Shown: positions 38,430 to 55,441 of the stretch, in pieces | Numbering within the stretch: the first letter of the stretch is position 1 | Layout of the letters: each line of letters opens with the position of its first letter | Assembly: GCF_000819565.1 (NCBI RefSeq) | Contig: NZ_CP004393.1 | Location: forward strand, 2,108,001-2,172,000 | Direction of reading: 5' to 3' | Source of the DNA: Celeribacter indicus | GTDB lineage: Bacteria; Pseudomonadota; Alphaproteobacteria; Rhodobacterales; Rhodobacteraceae | Length of the DNA: 64,000 nt | Notes under the pieces: generated by a model | Seen by the model: the letters and a program-made list of their open reading frames with translations, nothing else | Databases searched by the model: none | What the model was told of the DNA's origin: nothing | Translations under genes and position numbers: made by a program

Positions 38430-38433
38430 GTCC

Positions 38434-39264
38434 CTATCCCTGTTCCCAGTGAACGATCCTGCGGCCGATCCGGTGCACCGCGAGATCCACGATTGCGCCG
38501 AGCGCGCCGAGCAGGACGAGCAGGGCGAACATCCGGTCCGTGCGGATATACTGGCGCGCCTCCTGGAGCCTGTAGCCGATCCCGGAGGAGGCCCCCGACA
38601 GCTCCGCCGCGACGAGGCTCAGGAAGGCGAGGGCGACGCCCAGCCGCAGCCCGGCAAAGATATAGGGGGCCGCGGCCGGCACGATCACCGTCAGGAATTC
38701 GCGGCGCCGCGACGCCCCGAGCGAGCGCGAGGCGCGCAGGTAGACCTCGGGCACGTATTCCATGCCGTGATGGGTGTTGAACCAGACGGTGAGGAAGACG
38801 GTGTAGGAGATCACGAAATACTTGGACCCCTCGCCGATGCCGAACCAGACGATCGCCACCGGCACGAGCGCGATCGCCGGGATCGGCCGCAGGAGCGAGA
38901 GGAACGGCCCGAGCAGCGTGCGGATCAGCGCCACGCGCCCGGTCAGCAGCCCGAGCGCGATGCCGAGGCTCGCGCCGATGACGAAACCGATGGCGGCCCG
39001 GCTCAGCGAGACCGACAGGTCCTTCGGCAAGGTGCCGTTGCGCCACATCTCCACCGCCGCCGCCCAGACCGACCAGGGCGCGGGAAAGATCGCCTCGGGC
39101 ACAATGCGGAAGGCACCCGCGAGCGCCCAGAGGGCGAGCACGAAGGCGAAGGACACGAGCGGCCGGCCGAGGCTCGCCGTCGCCTCCAGCGCGCGGACCG
39201 CGACGCCGGAGGGCGGCAGGCGCGATCCCTTGCGGTCGCCGGGGGCCGGGTCGCTCAAAGCCAT
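38434..39264 (-). CDS. NitT/TauT-type ABC importer permease
   Basis: A 276-residue permease with six or so helices. Family features are [50 protein letters not shown], the EAA loop [49 protein letters not shown], and the C-terminal RRIVHWEQG. The ATG at 39264 overlaps the last 10 nt of the arylsulfotransferase-family gene, which suggests coupled translation. The open frame continues upstream but only inside that other gene. Confidence 0.9.
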
Positions 39265-40394
39265 GGCAGTTGCTCCGCACGATAGCGGTGGGCACGGAAG
39301 CAGGAGTTGTGCGCGCCGATGATGAACTCGTTGAGCGGGGTGGGATATTCCGCGAAATCCGGGATCACGTATTCCCAGACGGTCTCCCCCTCCGGCGTCA
39401 CCTCGAAGAGCCGTCCGAAGGCGCTTTCGCAGATGAAGGTGTTGCCGTTCCACAGCCGCTGGCAGCCGCCCATGTAGGGCGAGAAGAAGGAGCCCGGCAT
39501 CGGATCGGCATAGGACCAGACGACCGCCCCGGTCGCCGGATCGAATTCCAGCGCGCGGGAGAAGGGGGAGGTGGAGCCCTGCCGCAGGTTGCCGTTGTCG
39601 AAACACAGCACCGTGCCGCCCTCCATCTCCACCGGCGTGTGCTGCTGGGCGACGGTGTCGGGGCCGACATGCCAGACCACCTTGCCGGTCGACCGCTCGA
39701 CCGCGATCACGCCCGAAGTGGTGCGCAGGCTCATCAGCACGAGCCCGCCCCTGGTGACCGAAAGCCCGTTGATCATCGGCCAGTGGCGCCGGTCGAAAAT
39801 CGCGTGCACGGGAAAATCCGCGGGATCGAGATGGTCCCAGATCCGCCATTCCCAGACCGTTTCCCCGGCCCGGTTCACCTCCCGCACGATATCGGACTGC
39901 ACGATCCCGTCGGCCCCGTCCTTGCGCGGGTCGCCGCCGGTGACGCGCGCCGCCTTGTCGGCGGGCAGGGGGGCCGCGACGGTATAGAGCAGGTTGCCGT
40001 TCGCAAGCCATTGCGCGTCGTGGTGGTGATAGATGTCCTCGTGGCGCCAGACGATGTCCCCCTCGGGCGTCGCCTCGTAGAAATCCCCGCCGTGCCAGAG
40101 ATCCCAGGCCGGGTAGAGCGCGGCGGAGGTGGCGTGGCTGCCGTTGTAGCCGAGATTGCCGTTCGGCAGGATCACCGCGTCCCGGCCCGCGCGCACGGGC
40201 ATCTGCCAGCGATGCGCCGTCGCGCCGCCGATATCCACGAGGTCCACCCGCCCCCCGGCGGTCTGCCCGGCATAGAGCGTATAGCCCCCCGCCGTGCGGC
40301 GCGGATCGGCGGCGGTCAGGCCGGTGCGCCGGCGGCGCAGGGTGACCTGGTCGACGGCGGGGGCCATGTCCTTGGAAAGAGTCTGCGTCGTCAT
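39255..40394 (-). CDS. Arylsulfotransferase (ASST)-family beta-propeller protein
   Basis: A 379-residue protein of the arylsulfotransferase superfamily. Repeated beta-propeller blades carry motifs such as DAVILPNGNLGYNG, HHDAQWLANGNLLY, INGLSVTRGGLVLMSLR, HTPVEMEGGTVLCFDNG and LWNGNTFICESAFGRLFEV. ASST moves sulfate between phenols by a phospho-like His intermediate; several conserved-looking His are present (in NGSH, the HHH run, AQQHTP and GAHNS), but I could not align the catalytic one with certainty. There is no signal peptide, unlike periplasmic ASST, so a cytoplasmic role on the imported compound is likely. It is the first gene of a NitT/TauT operon, and GGAG lies 7 nt before its ATG. 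Confidence 0.78.
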   Translation of the reverse strand: MTTQTLSKDMAPAVDQVTLRRRRTGLTAADPRRTAGGYTLYAGQTAGGRVDLVDIGGATAHRWQMPVRAGRDAVILPNGNLGYNGSHATSAALYPAWDLWHGGDFYEATPEGDIVWRHEDIYHHHDAQWLANGNLLYTVAAPLPADKAARVTGGDPRKDGADGIVQSDIVREVNRAGETVWEWRIWDHLDPADFPVHAIFDRRHWPMINGLSVTRGGLVLMSLRTTSGVIAVERSTGKVVWHVGPDTVAQQHTPVEMEGGTVLCFDNGNLRQGSTSPFSRALEFDPATGAVVWSYADPMPGSFFSPYMGGCQRLWNGNTFICESAFGRLFEVTPEGETVWEYVIPDFAEYPTPLNEFIIGAHNSCFRAHRYRAEQLPWL

Positions 40395-40405
40395 CGTCGT
40401 CTCCG

Positions 40406-40424
40406 GTTCATTAAAACGTTTTAA
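40406..40424. promoter_or_regulatory. LacI-type operator, copy 1
   Basis: GTTCATTAAAACGTTTTAA contains the perfect 14-bp palindrome TTAAAACGTTTTAA at 40411-40424. It lies 12 bp before the start of the arylsulfotransferase-family gene. The same 19 bp recur 41 bp away. The strong AT content in a GC-rich genome makes chance unlikely. Confidence 0.85.
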
Positions 40425-40446
40425 AGCTCTTATGCACTTGCGGCGC

Positions 40447-40465
40447 GTTCATTAAAACGTTTTAA
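40447..40465. promoter_or_regulatory. LacI-type operator, copy 2
   Basis: The second identical 19-bp copy; here the palindrome extends to 16 bp (ATTAAAACGTTTTAAT, 40451-40466). The centre-to-centre spacing to copy 1 is 41 bp, close to four helical turns, so both sites face the same side. It lies between the two divergent start codons and immediately precedes a TTGACG that could be a -35 for the lacI gene. Confidence 0.85.
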
Positions 40466-40534
40466 TTGACGCGGGGCCGAATATTTCCTGCATGATCGCC
40501 GTTTCCGCTTTCGCAGGGCCGGTCTGCACAGAAA

Positions 40535-41572
40535 ATGGACAGGATGCGGATGAAAGAGCATGGACTCCCCCCGAAACGGCGCGCGACCGTCATCGACGTG
40601 GCCCGCCTCGCCGGGGTGTCGCCCGGCACGGTCTCCAACGCCATCAACGGCAAGCGCCGGGTCGATGCCGAGACGCGCGCGCGCATCGACGCGGCGATCC
40701 GCGAACTCGGATACCGGCCGAACATGGCCGCCCGTGGCATGCGGACCGGGCGGGCGAACACCATCGCGCTCTTCTCCTCCATGTCGACGGCGGTTTCCGC
40801 CGGCCCCTCGAGGCTCGGCTTCATGATGGAGATCGCGGCCTCCGCCTCCCTGACCGCGCTCACCCGCAACGTCGCGCTGGTGCTGGTCCCGCCGATCCCC
40901 GACCCGGAGGCGGCGCTGGGGGCGGTGCCGCTCGACGGCGCCCTGCTGGTGGAACCGGCGCGCGACGATCCCTTCCTGCCGATCCTCGCCGCGCGCGCCA
41001 TCCCGACCGTGGCGATCGGAGGCGCCCATGACGCCGCCTCGGCCCATGTCGACCTGCGCTATGCGGACACGGCGGACCTGCTGATCGGCCACCTCCACGC
41101 GCGGGGCGCGCGCCACGTCCCGCTCGTGATCGGGTCGAGCGCGCGGCGGTATTACGAGGTCTTCGAGGCGCGCTATCTCGACCACGCCGCGCGCACCGGC
41201 ATGACCCCCCGGATCCTGCGCATCGACGAGAGCCGCGGCGAGGCGGCGGCGGAGGCCGGGCTCTCCGCGCTCCTCGCACAGGGGCACCGGGTCGACGGGC
41301 TGCTCGTGCCGGTCGACGCGCTGGCGACCGGCGCCCTCGCGGCGCTGCGCCGGGCGGGGCTGCGCGTGCCCGAGGACGTGCGGGTCGCCACCCGCTACAA
41401 CGGTCTGCGCGCCCAGGCCGCCACCCCGCCGCTGACGGCGGTCGAACTCCACTTCGACGCGGTGGCGAGCGCGGCGACGCTGGCGCTGCTCGACCTGATC
41501 GACGGCCTCGACGTTCCGCAGGTTCTCACCGCGGAGTCCCCCGCGCTCATCGAACGCGCCTCGACCCGCTGA
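40535..41572 (+). CDS. LacI-family transcriptional repressor
   Basis: A 345-residue regulator. The HTH is at about 17-40 (ATVIDVARLAGVSPGTVSNAINGKR), and the hinge has LGYRPNMAARGMRTGRANTIALFSS. The effector domain has DGALLVEPAR, IPTVAIGG, VDGLLVPVDALATGALAALRRAGLRVPEDVRVATR and a late PPLTAVELHFD. It diverges from the arylsulfotransferase-family/ABC operon, with two identical operators between them, so it very probably represses that operon and itself. Start codons at 40544 and 40550 are alternatives. Confidence 0.9.
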   Translation: MDRMRMKEHGLPPKRRATVIDVARLAGVSPGTVSNAINGKRRVDAETRARIDAAIRELGYRPNMAARGMRTGRANTIALFSSMSTAVSAGPSRLGFMMEIAASASLTALTRNVALVLVPPIPDPEAALGAVPLDGALLVEPARDDPFLPILAARAIPTVAIGGAHDAASAHVDLRYADTADLLIGHLHARGARHVPLVIGSSARRYYEVFEARYLDHAARTGMTPRILRIDESRGEAAAEAGLSALLAQGHRVDGLLVPVDALATGALAALRRAGLRVPEDVRVATRYNGLRAQAATPPLTAVELHFDAVASAATLALLDLIDGLDVPQVLTAESPALIERASTR

Positions 41573-41611
41573 GGGCGGACAGGCCGGGGCGGACAGGGGG
41601 CCGCGTCCGGC

Positions 41612-42526
41612 TCAGTCGACCCAGGGCGTCTCGATCCTCGAGATGTGCTGGCGCAGGGATTCCTCGAACAGCGTCACCGCCGGCGCCAGGGTGCTGTCGA
41701 TCCTGCGGCCGAGGCGCAGCTCGTGGCTCTTCAGCTCGCGCCCGAGGATGGGGATATAGGCGAGCTGTCCGGTGCGCAGGTCCTCGTCCACGTCAATCCG
41801 GCTGAGGAAGGAGATCGCCTCCCCCGCCCGCACCATGGATTTCAGGAGCTCGATGGAATTCGACTTGTAGGTCGGGCGGATCCGCAGCCCGGCCCTCGCG
41901 AAGGCGTCGCTGACGAGATGGTTGATCGTCATCGTCTCGTCGGCGATCGCGAGCGGGTGGTCCGCAAGCTCCATCAGGCGCAGGTCGGAGCGCGCCGCCA
42001 GCGGGTGCGCCGCCGCGACGATGACGCCGAGCCGCGTGGGAAAGACGGCGGTCGCCTCGATCCCGTGCCCCTGCGGATAGGCATAGGACAGGCCCAGGTC
42101 CGCCGCGCCCATGGCGAGATCGGCATCGACGCCGGCGGTGGTCTGCGCCCGGACGGTCACATGGATCTCCGGGTGCGCGGCGCGGAATTCGCGGATCAGC
42201 CGCGGCAGGATTCCCGCCGCGAGCCCGTGCATCGCGGAAATCCGCACCTGCGTCCCCTCGGTCCCGCGCAATTCCCTCAGGCGCAGATGCAGCCGCTCGT
42301 GGTCGCGGAGCGTTTCGCGGATATGGGCGATCACGATCTCCCCGGCCGCGGTCAGGGTCATCCCCCGCCGGTGCCGGTGAAAGAGCTGGAGGCCGAGTTC
42401 CTCCTCCAGTTGCAGCAGGCGCCGGTTTATAGAAGACGCCGAAACATTGAGCGTTTCCGCCGCACTTCTGATCGACCCGCTGCGGGCGATTTCGTCGAGC
42501 TGCCTGAGGAGGCTGGAATGAAGCAT
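41612..42526 (-). CDS. LysR-family regulator
   Basis: A 304-residue LysR regulator. The HTH is at about 5-62 (LLRQLDEIARSGSIRSAAETLNVSASSINRRLLQLEEELGLQLFHRHRRGMTLT). The effector domain contains VRISAMHGLAAGILPRLIREFRAAHPEIHV and DLAMGAADLGLSYAYPQGHGI. It is divergent from the oxygenase island, with a perfect palindrome in between, and so is the likely regulator of genes from 42680 on. The ATG at 42526 was chosen; a GTG at 42535 with AGGA upstream is possible and would add three residues. Confidence 0.88.
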   Translation of the reverse strand: MLHSSLLRQLDEIARSGSIRSAAETLNVSASSINRRLLQLEEELGLQLFHRHRRGMTLTAAGEIVIAHIRETLRDHERLHLRLRELRGTEGTQVRISAMHGLAAGILPRLIREFRAAHPEIHVTVRAQTTAGVDADLAMGAADLGLSYAYPQGHGIEATAVFPTRLGVIVAAAHPLAARSDLRLMELADHPLAIADETMTINHLVSDAFARAGLRIRPTYKSNSIELLKSMVRAGEAISFLSRIDVDEDLRTGQLAYIPILGRELKSHELRLGRRIDSTLAPAVTLFEESLRQHISRIETPWVD

Positions 42527-42571
42527 CCTTCCCACCTGTTTTTCCTGGCTTTTCGGCCATGACCCCCGTCA

Positions 42572-42592
42572 GCGTGCGCTTTTTGCGCACGC
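42572..42592. promoter_or_regulatory. Perfect palindrome between lysR and the oxygenase island
   Basis: GCGTGCGC-TTTTT-GCGCACGC, an 8-bp perfect inverted repeat in the 153-bp divergent gap, 45 bp from the lysR start and 87 bp from the oxygenase start. It has a LysR-type site shape and location. As RNA it could also fold into a hairpin. Confidence 0.6.
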
Positions 42593-42679
42593 CACGGTAG
42601 GAAAAAGACGCTCGCTGCCGCCGTTTTCCCCTTTCTACGCTCGGGGAGACCAGGATTTGAGCAACAGCGGAGCCCCGAC

Positions 42680-43648
42680 ATGAGTGAGTTCGATCTGCCG
42701 ATCGTCGACATCGCCCCCTTCCTGGACGGCGATCCCCAAGCCAGGGCGCAGGTCGCGCGCGCCTTCGGAGCCGCCTTCGAGACGACCGGCTTCGCGATCG
42801 TCACCGGCCATGGCGTGCCGGAGGATCTGGCGCGCCGGCTCTACGACACGATGACCGCCTTCTTCGATCAGCCGATGGAGCGCAAGACCGTCTTCACCCC
42901 GCCGGAAAAGGCCAAGGGGCGGGGCTACCTGCCGATCGGCATCGAAAGCGTGGCGAAGACCCTGAGCGGCGAGACGCCGCCGGACCTGTGCGAGGCGCTC
43001 GTCTATGCCGCGCCGCACCGGCCGGAAAACGATGCCACGAACTACTGGCCGGACGATCCGCCGGCGCTCGCCGGGCTGGTGCGCGCGTGGACCGGAGAGA
43101 TCAACACCCTGAGCCGCCACCTGGCGCGGCTCTCCGCGCTCGCGCTCGATCTGCCGGAGGAATATTTCGACGCCGATTATGCCGACCCGTCGCTGACCCT
43201 GCGCTTCGTGAACTATCCCGACCAGCCCGAGGCGCCGAAACCGGGGCAGTTGCGCTATGGCGAACACCACGACTACGGCGCGCTCACGATCCTGCGCCAG
43301 GACGCGGCGCCGGGCGGGCTCGAGATCCGCGACGACACCGGCGTCTGGCGCGAGGCCCCCGTGGTCCCTGACAGCTTCGTCATCAACGTGGGCGACCTGC
43401 TCGCGCGCTGGACGAACAACCGCTGGCGTTCGACGCTCCACCGCGTCTCCAACCCGCCGCGCGATCTCACCGGCTCGACCCGGCGCCTGTCGATGGTGGC
43501 CTTCACCGGACCGAACGAGCGCACGCAGATCTCCTGCCTGCCGTCCTGCCAGTCGGCGGAGAACCCGCCGCTCTACCAGCCGGTCGCCTGCGGCGATTAC
43601 GTGCTGTCGAAGATCCGTGCCTCGCACGAACTGTCGGAGGCGGACTGA
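42680..43648 (+). CDS. Isopenicillin-N-synthase-like 2-oxoglutarate/Fe(II) oxygenase
   Basis: A 322-residue oxygenase. The N-terminal region has LPIVDIAPFLDG and TTGFAIVTGHGVPE. The catalytic core has His196-x-Asp198 (GEHHDYG), His254 (STLHRVSN) and Arg269-x-Ser271 (RRLSMVAF), so iron and 2OG sites are complete. It is related to the oxygenase at 34.3-35.3 kb and shares the SAENPP and CGDY-type ending. It starts the oxygenase island and overlaps the first binding-protein gene by 1 nt (TGATG). It likely hydroxylates or demethylates the imported substrate. Confidence 0.9.
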   Translation: MSEFDLPIVDIAPFLDGDPQARAQVARAFGAAFETTGFAIVTGHGVPEDLARRLYDTMTAFFDQPMERKTVFTPPEKAKGRGYLPIGIESVAKTLSGETPPDLCEALVYAAPHRPENDATNYWPDDPPALAGLVRAWTGEINTLSRHLARLSALALDLPEEYFDADYADPSLTLRFVNYPDQPEAPKPGQLRYGEHHDYGALTILRQDAAPGGLEIRDDTGVWREAPVVPDSFVINVGDLLARWTNNRWRSTLHRVSNPPRDLTGSTRRLSMVAFTGPNERTQISCLPSCQSAENPPLYQPVACGDYVLSKIRASHELSEAD

Positions 43649-44601
43649 TGCGCCGGCTCCTTCCCGTCCTCCTGCTCGGCTCTCCGGCGGCGGCCCAGGA
43701 TCTCGTGCCACTGAGCTACCATCTCAACTGGCTGCCCCAGGCGGAGCATTGCGGCTTCTTCCAGGCGGAGGCGAACGGTCTCTACGAGGCGGCCGGGCTC
43801 GACGTCACGCTGCTCGCCGGCGGGCCGGAAACCAATGTCCCGATGCTCGTCGCGGGCGGGGCCGCCGATCTCGGCATGGGCTCCTCCTTCACCACGATGA
43901 ACATGGCGCTCGAGGGGATCGAGGGGGTGACGGTCGCCGCCTTCCTCCAGAAATCGCCCCAGACCCTCGTTGCCCATCCGGGGCAGGGGGTCGAGACGCT
44001 CGAGGACCTGAAGGATCGCGACATCATGGTCGCCAATTTCTCGCGCATGGAATTCTGGCAGTTCCTCAAGGCCGAATACGGCTTCTCCGACGACCAGCTG
44101 CGCCCCTATGCCTATTCCTCCGCGCCCTTCCTCGCCGACGCGCGCGCCGTGCAGCAGGGCTATGTCACCGAGGACGCCTTCCTCCTCGGGCAGGAGATGG
44201 ACGCGCCCCCGGTCTCCATCCTGCTCGCGGATTACGGCTATCGCGACTACGCCGCCACCGTCTTCGGCATGTCCGACTGGCTCGAGGCGCACCGCGACGC
44301 GGTCGAAGCCTTCCTCGCCGCCTCGGCCGAAGGCTGGCAACAGTGCATCGCGGGCGACTACGAGCCGGCGAAACGCGCGGTGATGGCGGCCAATCCCGAC
44401 CATTCCGCGGGCCTCTTCGATTTCAAGATGTCGCAACTGATCGACCGCGACATGGTGACCGGAGAGGAGGACGTGCCGATCGGCAGCATGGACGCCGGCC
44501 GCTGGTCCGCCTTCGCCGACACGATGAAGGCGGCGGGGGTCTATCCCGAGACGCTCGACCCCGCGCGGGCTTACGATCTCAGCTTCCTGCCCGCGCCCTG
44601 A
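43648..44601 (+). CDS. NMT1/THI5-like ABC substrate-binding protein 1
   Basis: A 317-residue binding protein with a short signal peptide (about 1-16, ending PAAAQ). The NMT1/THI5 pattern is plain: VPLSYHLNWLPQAEHCGFFQAEANGLYEAAGLDVTLLAGGPETNVPMLVAGGAADLGMGSSF, then QQGYVTEDAFLLGQE. THI5-like proteins bind formyl-aminopyrimidine or other heterocycles. It is followed 44 nt later by a second binding protein of the same class, so this importer appears to have two. Fusion of its start to the oxygenase stop points to joint expression. Confidence 0.88.
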   Translation: MRRLLPVLLLGSPAAAQDLVPLSYHLNWLPQAEHCGFFQAEANGLYEAAGLDVTLLAGGPETNVPMLVAGGAADLGMGSSFTTMNMALEGIEGVTVAAFLQKSPQTLVAHPGQGVETLEDLKDRDIMVANFSRMEFWQFLKAEYGFSDDQLRPYAYSSAPFLADARAVQQGYVTEDAFLLGQEMDAPPVSILLADYGYRDYAATVFGMSDWLEAHRDAVEAFLAASAEGWQQCIAGDYEPAKRAVMAANPDHSAGLFDFKMSQLIDRDMVTGEEDVPIGSMDAGRWSAFADTMKAAGVYPETLDPARAYDLSFLPAP

Positions 44602-44645
44602 TCCCGATCCCCACCCCAGCCCAGATGTCACCCGGAGACCTCCCC

Positions 44646-45638
44646 ATGACGCAGCTCCTCCTCCCCAGACGCCGCTTCCTCCAGGGCACCGCCGCGCTCG
44701 GCGGCCTCGCCCTCGCGGGCCCGCTCCGCGCGCAGACGCCGGTGAACTTCCAGCTCTCCTGGCTGCCCTCGGTGCAGTTCGGCGGCAGCTATATCGCGCT
44801 CGACAGGGGCTACTGGACGGAGGAGGGGCTCGACGTGTCGCTCCAGCCCGGCGGCCCGAACGCGCCGGTGGAGCCGCCGGTCGTCTCCGGCACCGCGCTC
44901 ATGGGCATCTCCGCGGCCGATTACACCGCCGCCGCGGTGGAACAGGGCGCGCCCTTCCGCATCGTCGCGGTCGCGATGCAGAAGAACCCCTTCGCCATCG
45001 CCTCCCTGACGGACAACCCGGTGAGTGAACCCGCCGATCTCGTCGGCCGGTCCATCGGCATGGCCACCGCCAACATGCCGGTGCTGCGGGCGCTCTGCGA
45101 GATCAACGGCGTCGATCCCGACGGGATCGAGGTGGTGCCGACGCAATACGATGCCGCGCCGCTGGTGAACGGACAGGTCGATTGCCTGCTCTGCTGGAAG
45201 ACCGACCTGCCCGTCGCCATGACCGTGGCGGGGGTGGACAACACCGTGATGCTCCTCGCCGATCACGGCTATGCCGTGCATTCCCAGACCTATATCGTCA
45301 CCGAGGACAGCCTCGCCAACGACCGCGCCACCCTCGTCTCGCTGCTGCGCGGCGAGATCCGCGGCTGGCAGGACTACCGCGCCGACACGGAGGCGGCGGC
45401 GGCGCTCACCGTCGCGATGTTCCCCGATCTCGGCCTCGATCCCGAGACGCAGAGGGTGCAGGCCGCCGCCCAGGTGGAGCTCATGTATTCCGACCTCACC
45501 GAGGAGCAGGGCTTCGGCTGGTTCACCGAGGAGACGGTCGCGGCCAATATCGAGACGCTCGGCCTGCTCGGCCGAAAGGTGAGCCCGGAGATGTGGGACC
45601 GCTCGCTGCTCGAGGAGGTGCACGCCGATGGCCTCTGA
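44646..45638 (+). CDS. NMT1/THI5-like ABC substrate-binding protein 2 (Tat-type signal)
   Basis: A 330-residue binding protein whose N-terminus, PRRRFLQGTAALGGLALAGPLRA, looks like a twin-arginine signal, so it may be exported folded. The NMT1 pattern follows: VNFQLSWLPSVQFGGSYIALDRGYWTEEGLDVSLQPGGPNAPVEPPVVSGTALMGIS, then LVNGQVDCLLCWKTDLP. It overlaps the ATPase gene by 11 nt. It is only distantly similar to binding protein 1, so the two may bind different ligands or substrate forms for one permease. Confidence 0.87.
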   Translation: MTQLLLPRRRFLQGTAALGGLALAGPLRAQTPVNFQLSWLPSVQFGGSYIALDRGYWTEEGLDVSLQPGGPNAPVEPPVVSGTALMGISAADYTAAAVEQGAPFRIVAVAMQKNPFAIASLTDNPVSEPADLVGRSIGMATANMPVLRALCEINGVDPDGIEVVPTQYDAAPLVNGQVDCLLCWKTDLPVAMTVAGVDNTVMLLADHGYAVHSQTYIVTEDSLANDRATLVSLLRGEIRGWQDYRADTEAAAALTVAMFPDLGLDPETQRVQAAAQVELMYSDLTEEQGFGWFTEETVAANIETLGLLGRKVSPEMWDRSLLEEVHADGL

Positions 45639-46446
45639 ACCGGCCCGCCCGCCGGAGGTCGTCTGCCGCGGCCTCACCAAGGTCTTCGGCACCGGTCCCC
45701 GCAGGGTCGAGGCCGTGGCGCCGACCGACCTGCGCTTCGCCCCCGGCTCGACCACCGCGCTGGTGGGCCCCTCGGGCTGCGGGAAATCGACGCTGCTGCG
45801 GATCGTCGCCGGGCTCGAGGCGCCCACCGAAGGCTCCGTGCTGATCGCGGGGGAGACGCCGCGCACGGTCAGCCGGCGCGGCGCGCTGTCCATCGCCTTC
45901 CAGGATCCCTCGCTCCTGCCCTGGCGCAGCCTGCGCAGCAATGTCGCCCTGGCGCGCCGGCTGGCCCGGCAACCCGCCGATCCCGCCGCGGTGGACGACC
46001 TGATCCGGCGCGTCGGGCTCGCCGGTTTCGAGGACAGGCGCCCGGCGGCGCTGTCGGGCGGCATGCGCCAGAGGGCTGCCATCGCCCGCTGCCTCGTCAC
46101 CCTGCCGCGGCTCCTGCTGCTCGACGAACCCTTCGGTGCGGTCGACGAGCTGACCCGCCGCCGCCTGAACCTCGAACTGCCGCGGCTGTGGGAAAAACCC
46201 GGCGCCACCACCGTGCTCGTCACCCATTCGATCAGCGAGGCGGTGCTGCTCTCCGACCGCATCCTCGTGCTCTCCGCCCGCCCGGCCGCCGTCGTCGCCG
46301 ACATCCCTGTGCCGCTGCCGCGCCCCCGCCGGGCGGACATGACCGACAGCGACGCCTTCCGCGCGCTCGAGCGCAGGGTCGCGGGCGTGCTCTTCGGAAA
46401 CGGCGGCGCGGGACATTCCCCGTCGGACAGGCTGGCGGCGGAATGA
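45628..46446 (+). CDS. NitT/TauT-type ABC importer ATPase
   Basis: A 272-residue ATPase: Walker [11 protein letters not shown]-loop IAFQDPSLLPWRSLRSNV, signature LSGGMRQRAAIARCL, Walker B LLLLDEPFGAVDELTRRRL, and H-loop LVTHSISEAVLLSDR. It overlaps the upstream binding protein by 11 nt and the permease by 4 nt (ATGA). The permease below has two fused domains, so two ATPase copies would serve one permease chain. Confidence 0.9.
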   Translation: MASEPARPPEVVCRGLTKVFGTGPRRVEAVAPTDLRFAPGSTTALVGPSGCGKSTLLRIVAGLEAPTEGSVLIAGETPRTVSRRGALSIAFQDPSLLPWRSLRSNVALARRLARQPADPAAVDDLIRRVGLAGFEDRRPAALSGGMRQRAAIARCLVTLPRLLLLDEPFGAVDELTRRRLNLELPRLWEKPGATTVLVTHSISEAVLLSDRILVLSARPAAVVADIPVPLPRPRRADMTDSDAFRALERRVAGVLFGNGGAGHSPSDRLAAE

Positions 46447-48041
46447 CCGGCGCGCTCCGCCATCCGCTGCTGATCGCCGCGCCGCGGGCGACCTCGGCCG
46501 TCCTGTCGCTCCTCGCGGTGCTGCTGGGATGGGAACTCCTCGCCCGCGCCCTTGCCGGAAGCTACCTGCTCGCCGGGCCGGTCGAGGTGCTGGCCTACCT
46601 GCGCGACCACGCGGGCCTCATGTCCCGCGCCCTCTCCGTGACGCTGCGCGAGGCGATGCTGGGCTATCTCTGGGGCAATCTCGCCGGGATCGCGCTCGCC
46701 GCCCTCGCGCTGCTGGTACCGCGGCTCGAACGGCTCGTCCAGTCGCTCGCCCTCGTCACCTTCTGCCTGCCGCTGGTCGCCACCGGGCCGATCCTGCGGG
46801 TGCTCTACGGGCCCGGCATCGGGCCGCAGGTGACCCTCGCGGCGCTCGCCGTCTACTACACCACCTTCGTGCCGGTCCTCGTCGGGCTGCGCGCCACACC
46901 CGCGGCCTGGCTCGATCTCGTGGCGAGCTACGGGCGCGGCCGCGGCTCCGAACTCGTCACGATCCGGGCGATGGCCTCCGTGCCCTACCTCGTCACCGGG
47001 CTCCGGATCGCCGCCCCCGCCGCCTTCCTCGGCGCCATGGTCGGGGAGTTCACCGGGGCGGAACGCGGCATGGGCGTGCTCGCGATCCAGGCGATGCGCA
47101 GCCTCGATGTCGAGGCGACATGGGCGCTGGCCACGGTCGCCTCGGCCGTCTCCATCGCCGCCTATCTCGCGGTCGGCGCGCTCGGCCGCCTGCTGTGGTC
47201 CGACCGGCCCCCGGTGATCCTCTCCGCCGTGCCGCAGGACGGCCCGGACCCAGCGGCCCACCGCCGGCTCGGGCGCGCGGGCCTGCCGCTTCTGACCGTG
47301 CTCGTCGTGCTGGCGCTCTGGTGGGGCAGCATGGAGGCCTTCGGCCTCAACCGCTTCTTCGCGCGGCGCCCGGCCGATGTCTGGGCCTTCCTCGTCACCT
47401 CCGACGCGGCGGCAGAGCATCGCGCGGTGCTGCTGCACGCGCTGGGCGAGACGCTGGCCTTCGTCCTCCCCGGCTATCTCGCCGGGCTCGGCCTCGGCGC
47501 CGTCCTCGCCGCGCTCTTCGTCCTGCTGCCCGCGCTGGCCCGCGTCGCCCTGCCGGTCGCCATCGCCCTGCGCTCCGTTCCGATCGTGGCCACCGCGCCG
47601 CTCATCGTCCTCGGGCTCGGACGCGGGGCCGCGGGCACGATCACCATCGTCGCGGTGATGATCTTCTTCCCGACCCTCATCGCCTGCCTCCAGGGGCTGC
47701 GCCAGGCGCCGGGGCAGGTGATGGACGTGTTCCGCAGCTATGCCACGCCGCCGCTGCGCACGCTGCTGCTCGCCCGCGTCCCGGCCATGCTGCCGGCCTT
47801 CTTCGCCTCGGCCCGCATGGCCGTCCCCGCCGCCGTCCTCGCCGTCACCGTCGCCGAATGGCTCGCCACCGGCACCGGGATCGGCAACCTCATGGCGCTC
47901 ACGACCTCCACATCGGACTACAACATGCTCTATGCCTCCATCGCCGCCGTCACCCTGCTCTCGGCCGCCGCCTATGCGGGCGTCGGCGCGCTCGAACGCC
48001 GCGTCCTCGCGGTCTACGCCCCCGAACAGGTGCGCACATGA
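46443..48041 (+). CDS. Fused two-domain NitT/TauT-type ABC permease
   Basis: A 532-residue membrane protein made of two permease modules in tandem. Module 1 (about 15-255) has its EAA-like loop at VASYGRGRGSELVTIRAMASVPYLVTGLRIAAPAAFLGAMVGEFTGA. Module 2 (about 275-530) has FRSYATPPLRTLLLARVPAMLPAFFASARMAVPAAVLAVTVAEWLATGTGIGNLM. A polar linker of about 20 residues (SAVPQDGPDPAAHRRLGRAG) joins them. NitT/TauT permeases are normally one-module homodimers of about 260-290 residues, so this chain is a natural heterodimer equivalent. There is no frameshift or stop between the halves. It overlaps the ATPase and Rieske beta-subunit genes by 4 nt each. Confidence 0.88.
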   Translation: MTGALRHPLLIAAPRATSAVLSLLAVLLGWELLARALAGSYLLAGPVEVLAYLRDHAGLMSRALSVTLREAMLGYLWGNLAGIALAALALLVPRLERLVQSLALVTFCLPLVATGPILRVLYGPGIGPQVTLAALAVYYTTFVPVLVGLRATPAAWLDLVASYGRGRGSELVTIRAMASVPYLVTGLRIAAPAAFLGAMVGEFTGAERGMGVLAIQAMRSLDVEATWALATVASAVSIAAYLAVGALGRLLWSDRPPVILSAVPQDGPDPAAHRRLGRAGLPLLTVLVVLALWWGSMEAFGLNRFFARRPADVWAFLVTSDAAAEHRAVLLHALGETLAFVLPGYLAGLGLGAVLAALFVLLPALARVALPVAIALRSVPIVATAPLIVLGLGRGAAGTITIVAVMIFFPTLIACLQGLRQAPGQVMDVFRSYATPPLRTLLLARVPAMLPAFFASARMAVPAAVLAVTVAEWLATGTGIGNLMALTTSTSDYNMLYASIAAVTLLSAAAYAGVGALERRVLAVYAPEQVRT

Positions 48042-48604
48042 CCGCCGCGGCCCCGCTCGGGCGCGTCCATGCCCGCTATGACGCCATGGCCCGCCGCCTC
48101 GCGCATCTGCGCGTCGCCCCGGCCGCCGATCCCGCGCTCTGCGCGCAGGCGGCGAGCTGGCTCGCGGCGGAGGCCCGGTTGCTCGACGCGCGCGCCTTCG
48201 ACGCCTGGCAGGAGATGCTGTCGGAGGACATGGTCCTCTGGGTGCCGGTCCATCCCGAGGACCACCCGGCGCGGGACCAGGCGCTCCTCTTCGACGACCG
48301 CCGCCGGATCGCGGAGCGCATCGCGCATTTCTCCGACCGCCAGGCCTGGGCCGTCACCGCCCCCGATCCGCTGATCATCCGCCATCTCGGCACGGTTGAG
48401 GCCTGGGACACCGGCGCGGAACTCCTCGCCACCGCACCGATCGAGATCCTGCATGTGCGCCGCGGCGCCCCGCTCAGGCTCTCCGGGCGCGAAGTGCTCT
48501 CCCTCTCCCACGACCCCGCCGCGGGGCGGGGGCTCATCACCTCCAAGACGCTCATCCTGCCGGAGCTCGTCCTGTCGACGCCCCATCTCGGCTGGATCAT
48601 CTGA
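48038..48604 (+). CDS. Ring-hydroxylating (Rieske) oxygenase, small (beta) subunit
   Basis: A 188-residue protein of the aromatic-ring-hydroxylating dioxygenase beta family (SnoaL-like fold). It has the opening ASWLAAEARLLDARAFDAWQEMLSEDMVLWVPV, then LLFDDRRRIAERIAHFSDRQAWAVTAPDPLIIRHLGTVEAWD and the ending ITSKTLILPELVLSTPHLGWII. It should form an alpha3beta3 complex with the next gene product. Here the beta gene precedes the alpha gene, the reverse of most dioxygenase operons. It overlaps the permease gene by 4 nt. Confidence 0.85.
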   Translation: MTAAAPLGRVHARYDAMARRLAHLRVAPAADPALCAQAASWLAAEARLLDARAFDAWQEMLSEDMVLWVPVHPEDHPARDQALLFDDRRRIAERIAHFSDRQAWAVTAPDPLIIRHLGTVEAWDTGAELLATAPIEILHVRRGAPLRLSGREVLSLSHDPAAGRGLITSKTLILPELVLSTPHLGWII

Positions 48605-48614
48605 AAGGTTTCCC

Positions 48615-50009
48615 ATGACCGCACGCACATCCGACCCGACACGCCCCGACGCCGTCATCGCCCGCGGCCCGGATCTGACCGACCGCCTCGCCTATCTCGT
48701 GCAGGACGACCTGCTGCACCGGACCGTCTACACCGACCCGGAGCTTTTCGACCTGGAAATGCAGCGCGTCTTCGGCGGCTCCTGGGTCTTCCTCGCCCAT
48801 GAGAGCGAGATCCCGGAGGCCGGCGACTATGTCCGGCGCCAGATGGGCAAGCGGCAGATCCTGATCGTGCGGACCGAACACGGCGAGGTCAAGGGCCTGC
48901 TGAACCGCTGCACCCACCGCGGCACCACGCTCGTGCCCTCGGAGGCGGGCTGCGCCAAACGCTTCGTCTGCCCCTATCACGGCTGGGCCTTCGACCTCGA
49001 CGGGCGGATCGCGAACCTGCCGGTCTCCGACAGCTACGACAGGCTCCACGAACGGCCCTTCGACCTCGGCCAGGTCGCCATCGGGATCCGCGCCGGGTTC
49101 ATCTTCGGCACGCTGGCGGCGGATCCGATGCCGGTGGACGACTGGCTCGGCGCGGCCGGTCCCTGGCTCGACCTGCATGTCGCGCGCTATCCTGGCGGCA
49201 GGCTGAAGGTCCAGCGCCGCAGGATCGTGCAGGAGTTCGCCGCCAACTGGAAGATGTCCTGGGACAATGCCGCCGACGGGATCCATGCGACCTTCGCCCA
49301 TGCCTCCTACAATACGCTCGGCAAATCCGCCGACACGAAAACCGTCCTCGCGCGCAACCCCGCCGTGACCCCGATGGTCTCGCGCACGCTCGGCCATGGC
49401 CATTGCGTCGTCGACCAGCGCCCCGGCATCCCCGACGGTCCCTGGTCGACGATGCGGCCGCTCCCGACCCGCGCGGAGATCGAGGCGAGCCTGCGGGAGC
49501 GGGGCGAGACGCGGCGGGAGATGTTCGACCTGATGACCGGCGACATGATCAACCTGTCGATCTTTCCCAACCTCATCTTCGTCGGCAATCAGATCATGGT
49601 GCCCGAACCCGTCGCCCCGGACCGCACCAGGGTCGCCTTCTACCTCACCATGGCGCCCGAGGCCCCCGAGGAGGTCGATCTCATGCGCCTGCGCGTCGAC
49701 GAGGATTTCCTCTCCTTCGGCACGCCCGACGATTTCGAGATGTTCGAGCGCGTGCAGGAGGGGCTGCGCGTCGACGAGGAGGAATGGATCGACATCTCCC
49801 GCGGCACGGGCGCCGGCGACGTGACCGGCGAGGACGGGCTCGTGACCGGCACCGTGGCCTCCGAGGCGCCGATGCGCGCCTATCTCGCGGAATGGAAGCG
49901 GCTCATGTCGAAACCCGTCCCGACCACCGTGCGCCGCGCCCGGATCGAGGAGAGCCGCTTCATGCAGACCATCCGCCAACGCCAGATGAAAAGGGAACAG
50001 AACTCATGA
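48615..50009 (+). CDS. Ring-hydroxylating (Rieske) oxygenase, large (alpha) subunit
   Basis: A 464-residue catalytic subunit. The Rieske [2Fe-2S] site is Cys99-x-His101 (NRCTHRG) and Cys119-x2-His122 (CPYHGW), with the standard 17-residue spacer. The mononuclear iron site fits the motif Asp217-x3-Asp221-x2-His224-x4-His229 in DNAADGIHATFAHAS; a late Asp completes the triad in relatives. It should hydroxylate an aromatic or heteroaromatic ring or demethylate a substrate with O2. It pairs with the upstream beta subunit. No reductase or ferredoxin gene is next to it, so electrons must come from elsewhere. The start at 48615 is supported by AAAGG 8 nt upstream. Confidence 0.92.
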   Translation: MTARTSDPTRPDAVIARGPDLTDRLAYLVQDDLLHRTVYTDPELFDLEMQRVFGGSWVFLAHESEIPEAGDYVRRQMGKRQILIVRTEHGEVKGLLNRCTHRGTTLVPSEAGCAKRFVCPYHGWAFDLDGRIANLPVSDSYDRLHERPFDLGQVAIGIRAGFIFGTLAADPMPVDDWLGAAGPWLDLHVARYPGGRLKVQRRRIVQEFAANWKMSWDNAADGIHATFAHASYNTLGKSADTKTVLARNPAVTPMVSRTLGHGHCVVDQRPGIPDGPWSTMRPLPTRAEIEASLRERGETRREMFDLMTGDMINLSIFPNLIFVGNQIMVPEPVAPDRTRVAFYLTMAPEAPEEVDLMRLRVDEDFLSFGTPDDFEMFERVQEGLRVDEEEWIDISRGTGAGDVTGEDGLVTGTVASEAPMRAYLAEWKRLMSKPVPTTVRRARIEESRFMQTIRQRQMKREQNS

Positions 50010-50443
50010 CCGCCGCACAGACGATCACCCCCGAGGAGCGGAACAAGCGGATCGTCCGCACCTATCACCGGAGCCTCTGGGGCGAGGGCGACACCGCCGT
50101 CATCGACCTCTACTGGTCGCCCGAAGCCGAGGTCCACATGACCGATTTCGACGGCACCGCGGTCGATGTCGTGCGCGAGGATGTCGAACGCTATTTCACC
50201 GCCTTCACCGACCAGCGCACCACCATCCATCACCTCGTGGCCGAAGGCGACAGCGTCGTGCTGCACTGGTCCACCACGGGCCGGCACGTCGGCCCCTATG
50301 GCGGGATCGCCGCGACGGGAAAGCAGATCACCATGGCCGGCATGGACCTGCTGCGGCTCGCGGACGGCAAGATCGTCGAATGCTGGTCGATGTGGGACGG
50401 GCTCGCCGTCTACGACCAGCTCGGCGCGCTGAAGATCGGGTGA
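50006..50443 (+). CDS. SnoaL-like (NTF2-fold) protein
   Basis: A 145-residue protein of the SnoaL/NTF2-like superfamily: IVRTYHRSLWGEGDTAVIDLYWSPEAEVHMTDFDGTAVDVVREDVERYFTAF, VVLHWSTTGRHVGPYGGIAATGKQITMAGMDLLRLADGKIVECWSMWDGL. This fold includes polyketide cyclases, ketosteroid-isomerase-like enzymes and dehydratases, so it probably acts on the product of an oxygenase in this operon, for example by cyclisation, isomerisation or dehydration. It overlaps the Rieske alpha gene by 4 nt. The reaction cannot be set from sequence. Confidence 0.82.
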   Translation: MTAAQTITPEERNKRIVRTYHRSLWGEGDTAVIDLYWSPEAEVHMTDFDGTAVDVVREDVERYFTAFTDQRTTIHHLVAEGDSVVLHWSTTGRHVGPYGGIAATGKQITMAGMDLLRLADGKIVECWSMWDGLAVYDQLGALKIG

Positions 50444-50447
50444 CGCC

Positions 50448-51242
50448 ATGGCCGCGCTGAAGACCCGGCTCGCCGAAGACGGCTATGCGCTCGTGCCCGG
50501 CGTGCTCGACGCGGCGGCCTGCGACGCGCTCACCGCGGCGATCGCGGCCTGCCGCGCGGCGCCGGGGGAGACCTTCCGCACGCTCTCGCCCGAAGGCGCG
50601 CCGCTGGTGCAGTCCGAACTCTTCCGCTGGACCGACACGCCCGCGATCCGCGCCCTGACCCACACGGGCGCGCTGCCGGCGCTCGCGGCCGAAGCCTTCG
50701 GCACGCCCGAGGTCATCCTGATGGAGGACCAGTGGTTCTGGTCGGAGGCCGGCGCGTCCACGCCCTCGCCCTGGCACCAGGACCACCCCTATCACCCGCT
50801 GGACCCCTGGTTCCTGACGATCTGGATCCCGCTCGACGATCCGCCCGGCCCGGTGGGGCTGCGCGTCGCGGCCGGCAGCCACGGCCGCAGGATGTACGGA
50901 CCCGTGGAATTCTCCGCCGGCGCGGCGACGCTGGGCGACAGCGGGCAGGCGCTCGAACCGGTCCCGGACATCGGCGGCGATCCGCAGGGCTGGCGGGTGA
51001 TCACCCCGCCAGCCGCGCGCGGCGATGCCGTGCTGATGGACAGCCGCACCCTGCACGCCGCCGGCGGCCCCTGTCACGGCACCTTCCGCCGGATCTCGAT
51101 CCGCTACGCCCATCCCGACACGACGGTGACGCCCCGGCCCTGGCCGGTGGCGCAGTTCTGGGACCACCATCCGGTCGCGACGCGGGCAGGGGCCTCCATC
51201 GCCGGTCCCGCCTTTCCGAAACTATGTCCGGCGGCGGGCTGA
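50448..51242 (+). CDS. Phytanoyl-CoA dioxygenase (PhyH)-family 2OG/Fe(II) oxygenase
   Basis: A 264-residue oxygenase of the PhyH family. It opens with LAEDGYALVPGVLDAAACDALTAAI. The iron triad is His110, Asp112 (WHQDHPYH) and His203 (DSRTLHAAGG), and the 2OG-binding Arg lies in RRISIRY. It is the third iron oxygenase family in this cluster. It lies 4 nt after the SnoaL-like gene and converges with the next LysR gene (11-bp gap). The substrate is unknown; PhyH members act on fatty acyl-CoA, halogenated or small-molecule substrates. Confidence 0.87.
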   Translation: MAALKTRLAEDGYALVPGVLDAAACDALTAAIAACRAAPGETFRTLSPEGAPLVQSELFRWTDTPAIRALTHTGALPALAAEAFGTPEVILMEDQWFWSEAGASTPSPWHQDHPYHPLDPWFLTIWIPLDDPPGPVGLRVAAGSHGRRMYGPVEFSAGAATLGDSGQALEPVPDIGGDPQGWRVITPPAARGDAVLMDSRTLHAAGGPCHGTFRRISIRYAHPDTTVTPRPWPVAQFWDHHPVATRAGASIAGPAFPKLCPAAG

Positions 51243-51253
51243 GCCTGCCGCCC

Positions 51254-52147
51254 TCACCGTTCCGGGGCCAGCTCCTCCGCGAGCCAGGCGAGGAAGCGGG
51301 ACGTCTCGGGATGCGGCAACCTGCTCTCGGGGCGCAGCGCCCAGAAACTCTCCGGCGTGGCCGGCCGGTGCGCGAAGGGCTCCCGCACCAGCCCTTGCTT
51401 CACCGCGTCGGCGACGTAGAGCCGCGGGACGACCGCAAGCCCCAGACCGGCGCCGACCGCGGCGATCAGCAGGGCGCTCGTGTCGAAACGCGGACCCCGG
51501 ATCGCGCCGGAATGCTTCACCCCCGACCCGCGCAGCCAGGTCATCCAGAGATCGGGACGGGCGGCGTTCTGGAGCGTCGGCACGCGCCCGAAATCGAGCG
51601 GTCCGGGCGACAGATCCTCCGCCGGCATCCCCGGCGGGGCGATGACGGTCAGCACCTCCGGGCAGAGCGGATCGGCGCGGGCCTCCGCCCAGGCGCCGCG
51701 GCCGCGGCGGATCGCCAGGTCGACGCGCTCCGGCACCCGCTCCGCGCCGCCCGCGGCGCCGACGATCTCGACCAGCAGGTCGGGACGGGCGGCCGTGAAC
51801 CGCGCGAGCCGCGGGACCAGCCAGTGCGCGGCGAAGGAGACCGGCGCCTCGATCACCAGCGCATCCCTGAGGCTCCGCCCGCGCACCGTGTCGATCGCCG
51901 AGGTCTCGAGCTCCCCCAGCAGGCGGTGCGTCTCCCGCAGGTAGCCCTCGCCCGCCTCGGTGAGCACGAGCCGCGATCCGATCCGCCGGAACAGCGGCAG
52001 GCCGAGAAAGGCCTCGAGCGCCGCGATCTGGCGGCTGACCCCGCTCTGGGTGAGGCCGAGATCCTCCGCCGCGCGGGTGAAGCTGCGGTGACGCGCCGCG
52101 GCGTCGAAACATTCGAGGGCGGAGAGCGAGGGGATGAAGCGGCGCAT
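51254..52147 (-). CDS. LysR-family regulator, GcvA type
   Basis: A 297-residue LysR regulator. The HTH region is FIPSLSALECFDAAARHRSFTRAAEDLGLTQSGVSRQIAALE, followed by FRRIGSRLVLTEAGEGYL. The GcvA-like effector domain has LVIEAPVSFAAHWLVPRLARFTAARPDLLVEI. The start at MRRFIPSLSAL matches the family's usual N-terminus; an ATG at 52171 would add 8 residues and overlap the putative operator. It is convergent with the oxygenase island and divergent from the DadA-like gene, so it may control the latter. Confidence 0.85.
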   Translation of the reverse strand: MRRFIPSLSALECFDAAARHRSFTRAAEDLGLTQSGVSRQIAALEAFLGLPLFRRIGSRLVLTEAGEGYLRETHRLLGELETSAIDTVRGRSLRDALVIEAPVSFAAHWLVPRLARFTAARPDLLVEIVGAAGGAERVPERVDLAIRRGRGAWAEARADPLCPEVLTVIAPPGMPAEDLSPGPLDFGRVPTLQNAARPDLWMTWLRGSGVKHSGAIRGPRFDTSALLIAAVGAGLGLAVVPRLYVADAVKQGLVREPFAHRPATPESFWALRPESRLPHPETSRFLAWLAEELAPER

Positions 52148-52168
52148 GGCGGGATCCGGGGACAGTGC

Positions 52169-52185
52169 CATGAATAAAAGTCATG
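52169..52185. promoter_or_regulatory. Short palindrome upstream of lysR and the DadA-like gene
   Basis: CATGA-ATAAAAG-TCATG, 5-bp arms around an AT-rich centre, fits a LysR T-N11-A-type site. It is 22 bp before the chosen lysR start and about 155 bp before the DadA-like gene. Confidence 0.4.
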
Positions 52186-52340
52186 CCGGACCGCGGATTT
52201 CAACCCTTCCCTTCGCCGGCGGCTCTGCCATCCTGAGGCAGCGGGTGCGCCGAATGCGGCGAAACGCCCGCAATCTTTCACGAACTCTCCCGCCCGCCGG
52301 TCCGACGGGGCGGGCGGTGCGGTCAGGAGGAGCCCGGCCC

Positions 52341-53687
52341 ATGAGCATATCGCATCCCCGGCATGTCGCGGTCATCGGCGCCGGCATCGTCGGCCTCGCG
52401 GTGGCCGAACGGCTGGTCGCGGAGGGGCATCGCGTCACGGTCCTGGCCCCGGATCCGCCCGGCTCGGACCGGTGCGCGAGCTATGGCAACGGCGCCTTCA
52501 TCAGTCCCGCCTCGGTCCTGCCGCTCTCCGCGCCGGGGCTCTGGCGCCGGGTGCCGGCGATGCTGCTCGACCCGGCGGGGCCGGTGTCGATCCGGCTGCG
52601 CGACCTGCCGCGGCTGGCCCCCTGGCTCCTCGCCTTCCTGCGCGCAGGATCGCGCCCCGACCGCGTCGCCCGGATCGCGCAGGCGCTGCGCCTGCTGCTC
52701 CACGACGCACCGGCGCGGCATGCGGCGCTGTCCGCGCGGGCGGGGGCGGCGGATCTGATCCGCGCCACGGGCCTGCTCTATGCCTTCCGCGATCGCGCCG
52801 CCTTCGAGGCGGAGCGCGCCGGCTGGCGTCTTCGCGCGGAGTGCGGTGTGGCCTGGCGCGCCTGCGAGGGGGCCGAGCTGCGGGCGCTGGCGCCGGACCT
52901 CTCGCCCGCCTGCCGTTTTGCGATCCTCGTCACCGGGGGCGCCTGGTGCGCCGATCCCGGCGGCTATCTTGCCGCACTCGCCCGGTTCCTCGGCGCGGCG
53001 GGGGCGGAGGTCCGGTGCGACCGGGTGGAGGCGATCGGGATCTCCGGCGGGCAGCTTCGCGGCCTGTCCTGTGCCGGCGGCTTCCTTGCCTGCGACGCGG
53101 CCGTGATCGCGGCGGGGATCGCCTCCGCTCCGCTGGCCGCCCAGGCGGGCGACCGCGTCCCGCTCGCGGCGGAGCGCGGCTATCACGTCGAGATCGCGGA
53201 TGCGCCCGTGAGCCTCGCCGTCCCGATCATGCCGCAGGACGGCAAGATGGCCAATGTCTCGATCCGGGGCGCGCTGCGGGCCGCGGGGCAGGTGGAGATC
53301 GCCGCCCCCGAGGCGCCGCCGAACTGGGCGCGGGCGGAGGTGCTTCTGTCCCATCTGGAACGCACCTATCCCGTCCTTTCTGGCAGGTCTCACGACCTGC
53401 GGCGCTGGATGGGATGCCGCCCCTCGCTGCCGGACGGAAAGCCGGTGATCGGCCGGGCCTCCGGCTGCGCCGCCGTGATCCATGCCTTCGGGCACGGCCA
53501 TGTCGGCCTCGCCTCCGCGCCGGCGACGGCGGAGATCGTCGCGGACCTGCTCGCGGGTCGGCCTCCCGCCCGCGATCCGGCGCCCTTCTCGCCGCGGCGG
53601 TTCCGCCGCTTCTCTGCCCGACAGAAGTCCGACGCATGTCCGACGCAAATCCGACAGCTCCCCGGCCCCCGGAAAGACCGCCCATGA
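52341..53687 (+). CDS. DadA-like FAD-dependent D-amino acid dehydrogenase
   Basis: A 448-residue flavoprotein of the DAO superfamily. It has the dinucleotide-binding start HVAVIGAGIVGLAVAERLVAEGHRVTVL. DadA-like SYGNGAFISPASVLPLSAPGLWRRVPAMLLDPAGPVSIRL follows, then a late VIHAFGHGHVGLASAPATAEIVADLL. It should oxidise a D-amino acid or another small amine to the oxo acid and pass electrons to the membrane. AGGAGG lies 10 nt before the ATG. The last 45 residues are Arg/Pro-rich and unlike the family. It overlaps the next flavoenzyme by 4 nt (ATGA), so they act as a pair. Confidence 0.87.
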   Translation: MSISHPRHVAVIGAGIVGLAVAERLVAEGHRVTVLAPDPPGSDRCASYGNGAFISPASVLPLSAPGLWRRVPAMLLDPAGPVSIRLRDLPRLAPWLLAFLRAGSRPDRVARIAQALRLLLHDAPARHAALSARAGAADLIRATGLLYAFRDRAAFEAERAGWRLRAECGVAWRACEGAELRALAPDLSPACRFAILVTGGAWCADPGGYLAALARFLGAAGAEVRCDRVEAIGISGGQLRGLSCAGGFLACDAAVIAAGIASAPLAAQAGDRVPLAAERGYHVEIADAPVSLAVPIMPQDGKMANVSIRGALRAAGQVEIAAPEAPPNWARAEVLLSHLERTYPVLSGRSHDLRRWMGCRPSLPDGKPVIGRASGCAAVIHAFGHGHVGLASAPATAEIVADLLAGRPPARDPAPFSPRRFRRFSARQKSDACPTQIRQLPGPRKDRP

Positions 53688-55393: not shown

Positions 55394-55409
55394 AACATTA
55401 GAGTCGGTC

Positions 55410-55440: not shown

Positions 55441-55441
55441 G

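Follow-up and report, generated by a model that had tools for sequence, protein, structure and literature searches.

What compound is handled by a gene island that places three different iron oxygenases around a single importer? Such an island lies at positions 42,680 to 51,242 of a 64,000-nucleotide stretch (the window) from the 4.97 Mb, six-contig genome of Celeribacter indicus (NZ_CP004393.1, positions 2,108,001 to 2,172,000). It consists of nine genes, for an isopenicillin N synthase (IPNS)-type 2-oxoglutarate (2OG)-Fe(II) oxygenase, two substrate-binding proteins (SBP1 and SBP2), an ATP-binding cassette (ABC) ATPase and a fused permease, the beta and alpha subunits of a Rieske oxygenase, a SnoaL-like protein and a PhyH-type 2OG-Fe(II) oxygenase. 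Here we report that the core of the island, a Rieske clade of unassigned function with a dedicated importer, is real and conserved. We propose tentatively, with a probability of about 0.45, that the island serves the uptake and oxidative opening of a pteridine (a pterin or folate fragment) or a closely similar fused aminopyrimidine.

Production of pterins and folate fragments is widespread in nature, and to our knowledge their aerobic breakdown is poorly mapped. An earlier note on this DNA had described the nine-gene block and named its products; all nine open reading frames were confirmed on the forward strand, and every protein scores over the curated Pfam cut-off for the expected domain. 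None of the listed NCBIfam models reached its curated cut-off for any of the nine proteins (ATPase: best 25 of 183).

Conservation and distribution

With a profile of 23 Rieske alpha subunits, 44 loci were found in a named genome collection, and their layout was then determined by tblastn. Genes of the relatives were called with a home-made codon-bias caller, which can overlook small genes and misplace starts. The exact nine-gene order occurs in two of the 44 loci, Celeribacter halophilus (L018) and Phycocomes zhengii (L019, with a split ATPase hit), whereas the five-gene core SBP2-ATPase-permease-Rieske beta-alpha occurs in 22 (L018-L024, L026, L027-L039 and L043, where the permease and alpha hits are split). 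Two further islands, L025 and L054, are incomplete, which brings the total to 24; the remaining 20 loci hold Rieske alpha relatives of 30-43% identity without SBP2. Because the core is kept in half of the loci and over two phyla, in Alphaproteobacteria, Acidimicrobiia and Pseudonocardia, the block is more than a chance assembly.

Among the 24 islands, PhyH is present in 21 (it is missing from L020-L022 and stands separately, upstream, in L043), IPNS in nine (on the opposite strand in L025 and L026), SnoaL in nine and SBP1 in three; by tblastn, none of the 14 Acidimicrobiia islands showed a SnoaL hit. The periphery of the island is thus modular, and importer and Rieske genes alone are widely conserved. 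The nine-gene order recurs in other genomes, but a fixed nine-gene pathway is not upheld.

Within the family the Rieske alpha subunit is rare. A Rieske alpha ortholog (at least 67% identity) was found in two of 295 genomes (G000 and G232), and the six other family genomes that match at E<=1e-60 hold relatives of 31-35%; in the order, three of 390 sampled genomes match at E<=1e-110. Of 7995 candidates scored, 83 match the PhyH protein at E<=1e-30, the protein itself among them. Fifteen of the 83, the window's own included, appear to share a genome with one of 120 listed Rieske alpha subunits, judged by an identical length of the longest contig, and are probably linked to it there too. The cyanobacterium Thermostichus is named among both the Rieske alpha and the PhyH matches.

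Rieske oxygenase and iron sites

In a maximum-likelihood tree, of which clade support alone was used, the Rieske alpha subunit falls into a separate clade of 24 rows with 100/100 support, apart from its aniline-like relatives. A long-branch warning applies to rows outside the clade, and the label 'SBP2_island' includes P0060, whose locus was not seen. The closest relative (88% identity) is that of C. halophilus. The plasmid search returned 41-44% relatives only, the 15 loci on viral contigs were all distant (23-36%), and no characterised member of the clade was found in the sources searched.

Three of the 41-44% relatives sit beside glutamine-synthetase-like genes, two of them also with catechol 1,2-dioxygenase, a clustering that we take to be the aniline layout. 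They raise the question of an aromatic amine, or of an aryl ring attached to a heterocycle (a lumichrome-like benzo-fused pyrimidine, or the p-aminobenzoyl part of folate), whose carbocycle the Rieske enzyme would dihydroxylate. The best NCBIfam scores, to benzoate (198 bits) and anthranilate (164 bits) dioxygenases, point the same way, both far below cut-off. We consider this reading unlikely, given the separate clade and the neighbourhood: no glutamine-synthetase-like, amidotransferase or catechol-dioxygenase domain was found by Pfam in the genes of 36676-56244. The aniline-type clusters, on Rhodococcus and Dietzia plasmids, share the alpha/beta pair with the island, but they carry glutamine-synthetase-like, amidotransferase, ferredoxin, reductase and catA genes, all absent from the island, and have the order alpha-beta instead of beta-alpha. 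An aniline-type cluster was rejected, the defining glutamine-synthetase-like and amidotransferase neighbours being absent.

The best PDB match of the Rieske alpha subunit is 7yls/8h2t (163 bits), presumably IadD. The term '7YLS' occurs in the Iad paper, in which the iad operon (IadD/IadE/IadC, IadK) likewise pairs binding proteins with an alpha/beta Rieske enzyme (PMC10374108). Degradation of indole-3-acetate in the manner of iad is nevertheless most improbable for the island, since the match is tied with 9o71 (162 bits), sequence similarity is low and the neighbours differ; the iad operon has its own reductase IadC, for which the island has no counterpart. An iad-like assignment was rejected as the main reading for the distant alpha subunit and the lack of an IadC-type reductase.

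A second Rieske alpha family, 41-43% identical to that of the window, comes mostly from Acidimicrobiia (L040-L042, L044-L053, L057, L058). In 12 of its 15 loci a further Rieske alpha gene stands upstream, at a distance of about 2.5 kb, and in two one stands downstream; a beta subunit often stands in front of the first alpha.

The iron-binding residues had been reported as intact in all three oxygenases, and this holds. The Rieske protein has the Cys2His2 and 2-His-1-Asp iron sites and the alpha and beta domains of its class, and C99/H101/C119/H122 together with D221/H224/H229/D373 are invariant in 23 of 23 aligned sequences. Both other enzymes show the marks of 2OG-Fe(II) oxygenases, HxD...H plus RxS in the IPNS-type protein (H196-x-D198, H254, R269-x-S271) and HxD...H in the PhyH protein (H110-x-D112, H203), residues which we take to be the iron and 2OG ligands.

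A reductase is commonly, not universally, encoded together with a Rieske oxygenase. The island itself has none, as stated before. In a search for reductases with a Fer2 (2Fe-2S) domain, the nearest, with FAD and NAD domains, lies about 20 kb downstream; it has an ortholog in only one of six other Rieske-island genomes, for which reason it was rejected as a dedicated partner. A scan of 12 loci for ferredoxin-type cysteine motifs gave a few matches, in six loci, judged by eye to be out of frame.

Linked flavin oxygenase genes

By gene calling and tblastn, an FAD-linked oxidoreductase lies near the island in six of nine alphaproteobacterial loci (L018, L020-L024); the three loci without it (L019, L025, L026) are all cut short downstream by contig ends. 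It is accompanied by RidA, creatininase and a PRK07583-type deaminase in L020-L022 and by RidA and creatininase in L023, and in Pacificibacter and Harenicola the flavin oxygenase, deaminase, creatininase and RidA genes all adjoin the island. With one to two copies per genome of about 4 Mb, a simple calculation gives about a 1% chance per locus of such a gene falling within 10 kb; because of this low figure and because the arrangements differ, the linkage is unlikely to be one inherited accident.

In C. indicus the 64-kb window gave no hit to a flavin oxygenase of the 6v42 family, and the module does not adjoin the island. The ortholog, 63% identical to the L018 copy, lies at 3.09 Mb of contig C1, together with the only creatininase of the genome. 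The operon there comprises RidA (opposite strand), an NMT1 binding protein, ATPase, permease, deaminase and FAD oxidoreductase, followed by two NAD(P)H-oxidoreductase-like proteins, creatininase and an aminotransferase. Its deaminase, of the cyclic-amidine type, passes the cut-off of NF005759 (557 vs 403 bits), and its FAD oxidoreductase is a strong match to PDB 6v42, an entry whose title reads 'flavin oxygenase ... involved in folate catabolism'. Annotated copies of this module also exist in Pseudooceanicola, in Sulfitobacter and in Rhizobium johnstonii, the last with genes for a molybdenum hydroxylase and a creatininase close by. All six other island-bearing alphaproteobacterial genomes tested carry the flavin enzyme.

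This folate/pterin-type module, with its deaminase, NAD(P)H oxidoreductases, creatininase, RidA and NMT1 importer, is the system closest to the island: it is island-linked in several relatives, SBP1 and the binding protein of the operon at 3.09 Mb share 37% identity, and the Sulfitobacter copy contains an IPNS-type oxygenase 29% identical to that of the window over its length. In contrast, no Rieske or PhyH gene occurs in the module copies examined, and the island has no flavin oxygenase of its own. The flavin oxygenase, deaminase, creatininase and RidA genes of the relatives suggest the cleavage of a pteridine-like ring.

2OG oxygenases and importer in other settings

The best PDB match of the IPNS-type protein is thymine dioxygenase 5c3p (E 5e-43), and that of the PhyH protein is MysH (E 1e-6). 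Both are distant, and the substrates of thymine 7-hydroxylase and MysH are not transferable; a mycosporine reading drawn from MysH was dropped at so weak an E value. A 63% IPNS-type copy at 2.025 Mb of C1 has as neighbours another NMT1 importer and genes for a short-chain dehydrogenase/reductase, a TauD-type oxygenase and a PRK07583 deaminase that scores above its cut-off (580 bits). In another genome (G125) IPNS and SBP2-ATPase-permease occur without Rieske genes, next to genes for an allophanate hydrolase, which passes its cut-off at 746 bits, a biuret-hydrolase-like protein, which does not pass, and a cupin. The partner genes at both places fit the cleavage of a nitrogen-rich ring. One 44% hit was obtained in the plasmid search with the IPNS-type protein.

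SBP1 and SBP2 belong to the NMT1/THI5-type (aminopyrimidine) binding-protein class. Their closest relatives are binders of thiamin, formyl-aminomethylpyrimidine (FAMP) and hydroxymethylpyrimidine (HMP), SBP2 by fold and sequence and SBP1 by sequence only.

An NMT1-type importer also brings to mind purines, and the IPNS-type and Rieske enzymes could hydroxylate an imported purine of the hypoxanthine or xanthine type. The closest printed precedent lies in the genes under the xanthine (NMT1-motif) riboswitch, which, in the part of the list consulted, include IPNS-like pcbC, NMT1/THI5-like, tauA, hcaE-type dioxygenase and amidohydrolase genes (PMC7373994); PhyH and SnoaL do not appear in that part. 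The window also contains, at 30217-35265, a gene for adenosine deaminase and a second NMT1 importer accompanied by an IPNS-type enzyme, and in one of five plasmids examined, that of Alloyangia, xdhA/xdhB stand about 5 kb from the SBP2 importer. We judge a purine improbable all the same: the linked module is of the flavin-oxygenase/creatininase type, and no NMT1 motif reached the Rfam gathering score in 12 sources (the window, L086 and ten relatives), on which ground membership in the xanthine riboswitch regulon was not upheld.

Proposed pathway

The genes present, their conserved order, the intact metal sites, the linkage seen in relatives and the homology of the flavin enzyme to 6v42 are observed; from them we infer a substrate, an order of steps and a reaction for each enzyme. 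SBP1 and SBP2 would capture the pteridine-like compound, and the fused ABC permease and the ATPase would import it. The IPNS-type enzyme may oxidise a side-chain carbon, much as thymine 7-hydroxylase acts on the methyl group of thymine; the Rieske alpha/beta enzyme, served by a reductase encoded elsewhere, and the PhyH enzyme may hydroxylate the ring or an attached aryl ring, with SnoaL possibly assisting hydrolysis or isomerisation. The products would pass to the flavin oxygenase, the cyclic-amidine deaminase and the creatininase-type and RidA hydrolases, which would open the ring, encoded in the second operon in C. indicus and beside the island in Pacificibacter and Harenicola.

Several observations weigh against a pteridine. 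The second operon lies about 0.93 Mb from the island, and the folate-catabolism label of 6v42 stems from the PDB title alone, no paper having been found for the entry. As 85 of 295 genomes of the family hold the flavin enzyme, its co-presence is weak evidence (chance 0.08 for the two island genomes of that sample). C. halophilus and two Bauldia genomes have two copies each, one linked to the island and the other standing in the ordinary module. None of the 14 Acidimicrobiia island loci has a hit to the flavin enzyme. In the single Acidimicrobiia genome searched, that of L030, nothing closer than a 34% relative turned up, and the Pseudonocardia genome gave no match at E<=1e-40; the Rieske core can therefore run without it. 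Downstream genes in Acidimicrobiia are instead enolase-type (11 of 14), PanB-like (10 of 14) and amidohydrolases. The match of the IPNS-type protein to thymine dioxygenase is level with that to the ethylene/succinate-forming enzyme 9ovh (3e-42). Seventeen plasmid records, of genera that we take to be Rhodobacterales, carry SBP2 orthologs (68-77%). On the five examined (L131-L134 and L136; Dinoroseobacter, Paracoccus, Tateyamaria, Alloyangia and Roseicitreum) SBP2-ATPase-fused permease forms part of a lipid/glycan cluster that also holds genes for a CDP-alcohol phosphatidyltransferase, a sulfatase-like protein and a glycosyltransferase 4 but no annotated oxygenase. The ligand of the importer may thus be other than a pteridine.

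These plasmids would also suit an importer unrelated to the oxygenases, a general cassette travelling with different genes. We regard this as quite improbable, since the importer stands directly before Rieske beta-alpha in 22 of 44 loci of two phyla.

The enolase-superfamily genes lie near the island in L027-L030, L032, L033, L035, L037-L039, L054 and Bauldia L024, those of Acidimicrobiia being 52-55% identical to the gene beside the Bauldia island. An enolase-superfamily enzyme is a possible further step of the pathway. The enolase and PanB linkage in Acidimicrobiia is not independent evidence because these loci are syntenic over their flanks.

The earlier note had proposed a linked pathway that imports a heteroatom-containing ring or amine and oxidises it stepwise, the SnoaL-like protein handling an unstable intermediate. 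Of this, a conserved island probably acting on a nitrogen-containing ring stands; the role given to SnoaL is conjectural; a single fixed nine-gene pathway does not, as importer and IPNS also occur without Rieske genes and the importer also with lipid/glycan genes. The note knew of no described pathway with this layout, and word searches of open-licence PMC papers found no description of the layout or of the linked module.

A wider claim is doubtful, though worth stating: an undescribed aerobic route for pteridines (or fused aminopyrimidines), in which a new alpha/beta Rieske clade and two 2OG oxygenases would oxidise ring and side chain, common to marine Rhodobacterales, uncultured Acidimicrobiia, Pseudonocardia and probably hot-spring cyanobacteria. 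If the pteridine reading is right, candidate oxygenases and an importer would be named for the breakdown of pterins and folate fragments, the Rieske alpha clade would serve as a marker gene for the trait in uncultured bacteria, and Rieske and 2OG enzymes would gain a new substrate class. If wrong, the conserved core remains, with its function unassigned.

Genes of the island and its surroundings

The genes are listed in Table 1. The divergent LysR-type gene is likely the regulator of the island, a homolog (39-80%) standing upstream in seven of nine alphaproteobacterial loci.

Table 1. Island genes and divergent regulator, in window coordinates
Feature	Position	Strand	Remarks
LysR-type regulator	41612..42535	-	divergent from island
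IPNS-type 2OG-Fe(II) oxygenase	42680..43648	+	Pfam DIOX_N and 2OG-FeII_Oxy
SBP1, NMT1/THI5-like binding protein	43648..44601	+	Pfam NMT1
SBP2, NMT1/THI5-like binding protein	44646..45638	+	Pfam NMT1; start possibly 44625
ABC transporter ATPase, NitT/TauT type	45628..46446	+	Pfam ABC_tran
Fused two-domain ABC permease	46443..48041	+	Pfam BPD_transp_1, 2 stretches
Rieske oxygenase beta subunit	48038..48604	+	Pfam Ring_hydroxyl_B
Rieske oxygenase alpha subunit	48615..50009	+	Pfam Rieske and Ring_hydroxyl_A
SnoaL-like protein	50006..50443	+	Pfam SnoaL
PhyH-type 2OG-Fe(II) oxygenase	50448..51242	+	Pfam PhyH

In island order the intergenic spacings are -1, +44, -11, -4, -4, +10, -4 and +4 nt. The statement that nearly all overlaps and gaps are of 1-11 nt is correct, the sole larger spacing being that between SBP1 and SBP2 (44 nt, or 23 nt with the alternative SBP2 start). 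The SBP2 leader is twin-arginine-like as judged by eye.

Directly downstream (51254-56247) follow LysR, DAO-type (DadA-like), FAD amine-oxidase-type and aspartate-dehydrogenase-type genes; the last three had no tblastn hit in 45 loci and are not counted as parts of the island. Upstream, 30217-36435 holds another NMT1-type importer, a second IPNS-type oxygenase (34285-35265) and a LacI-type regulator beside the adenosine deaminase gene and looks like a separate purine-type import cluster. Between it and the island, 36676-40394 on the reverse strand holds a third NMT1-type importer (binding protein, ATPase and permease), followed by an arylsulfotransferase-like gene.

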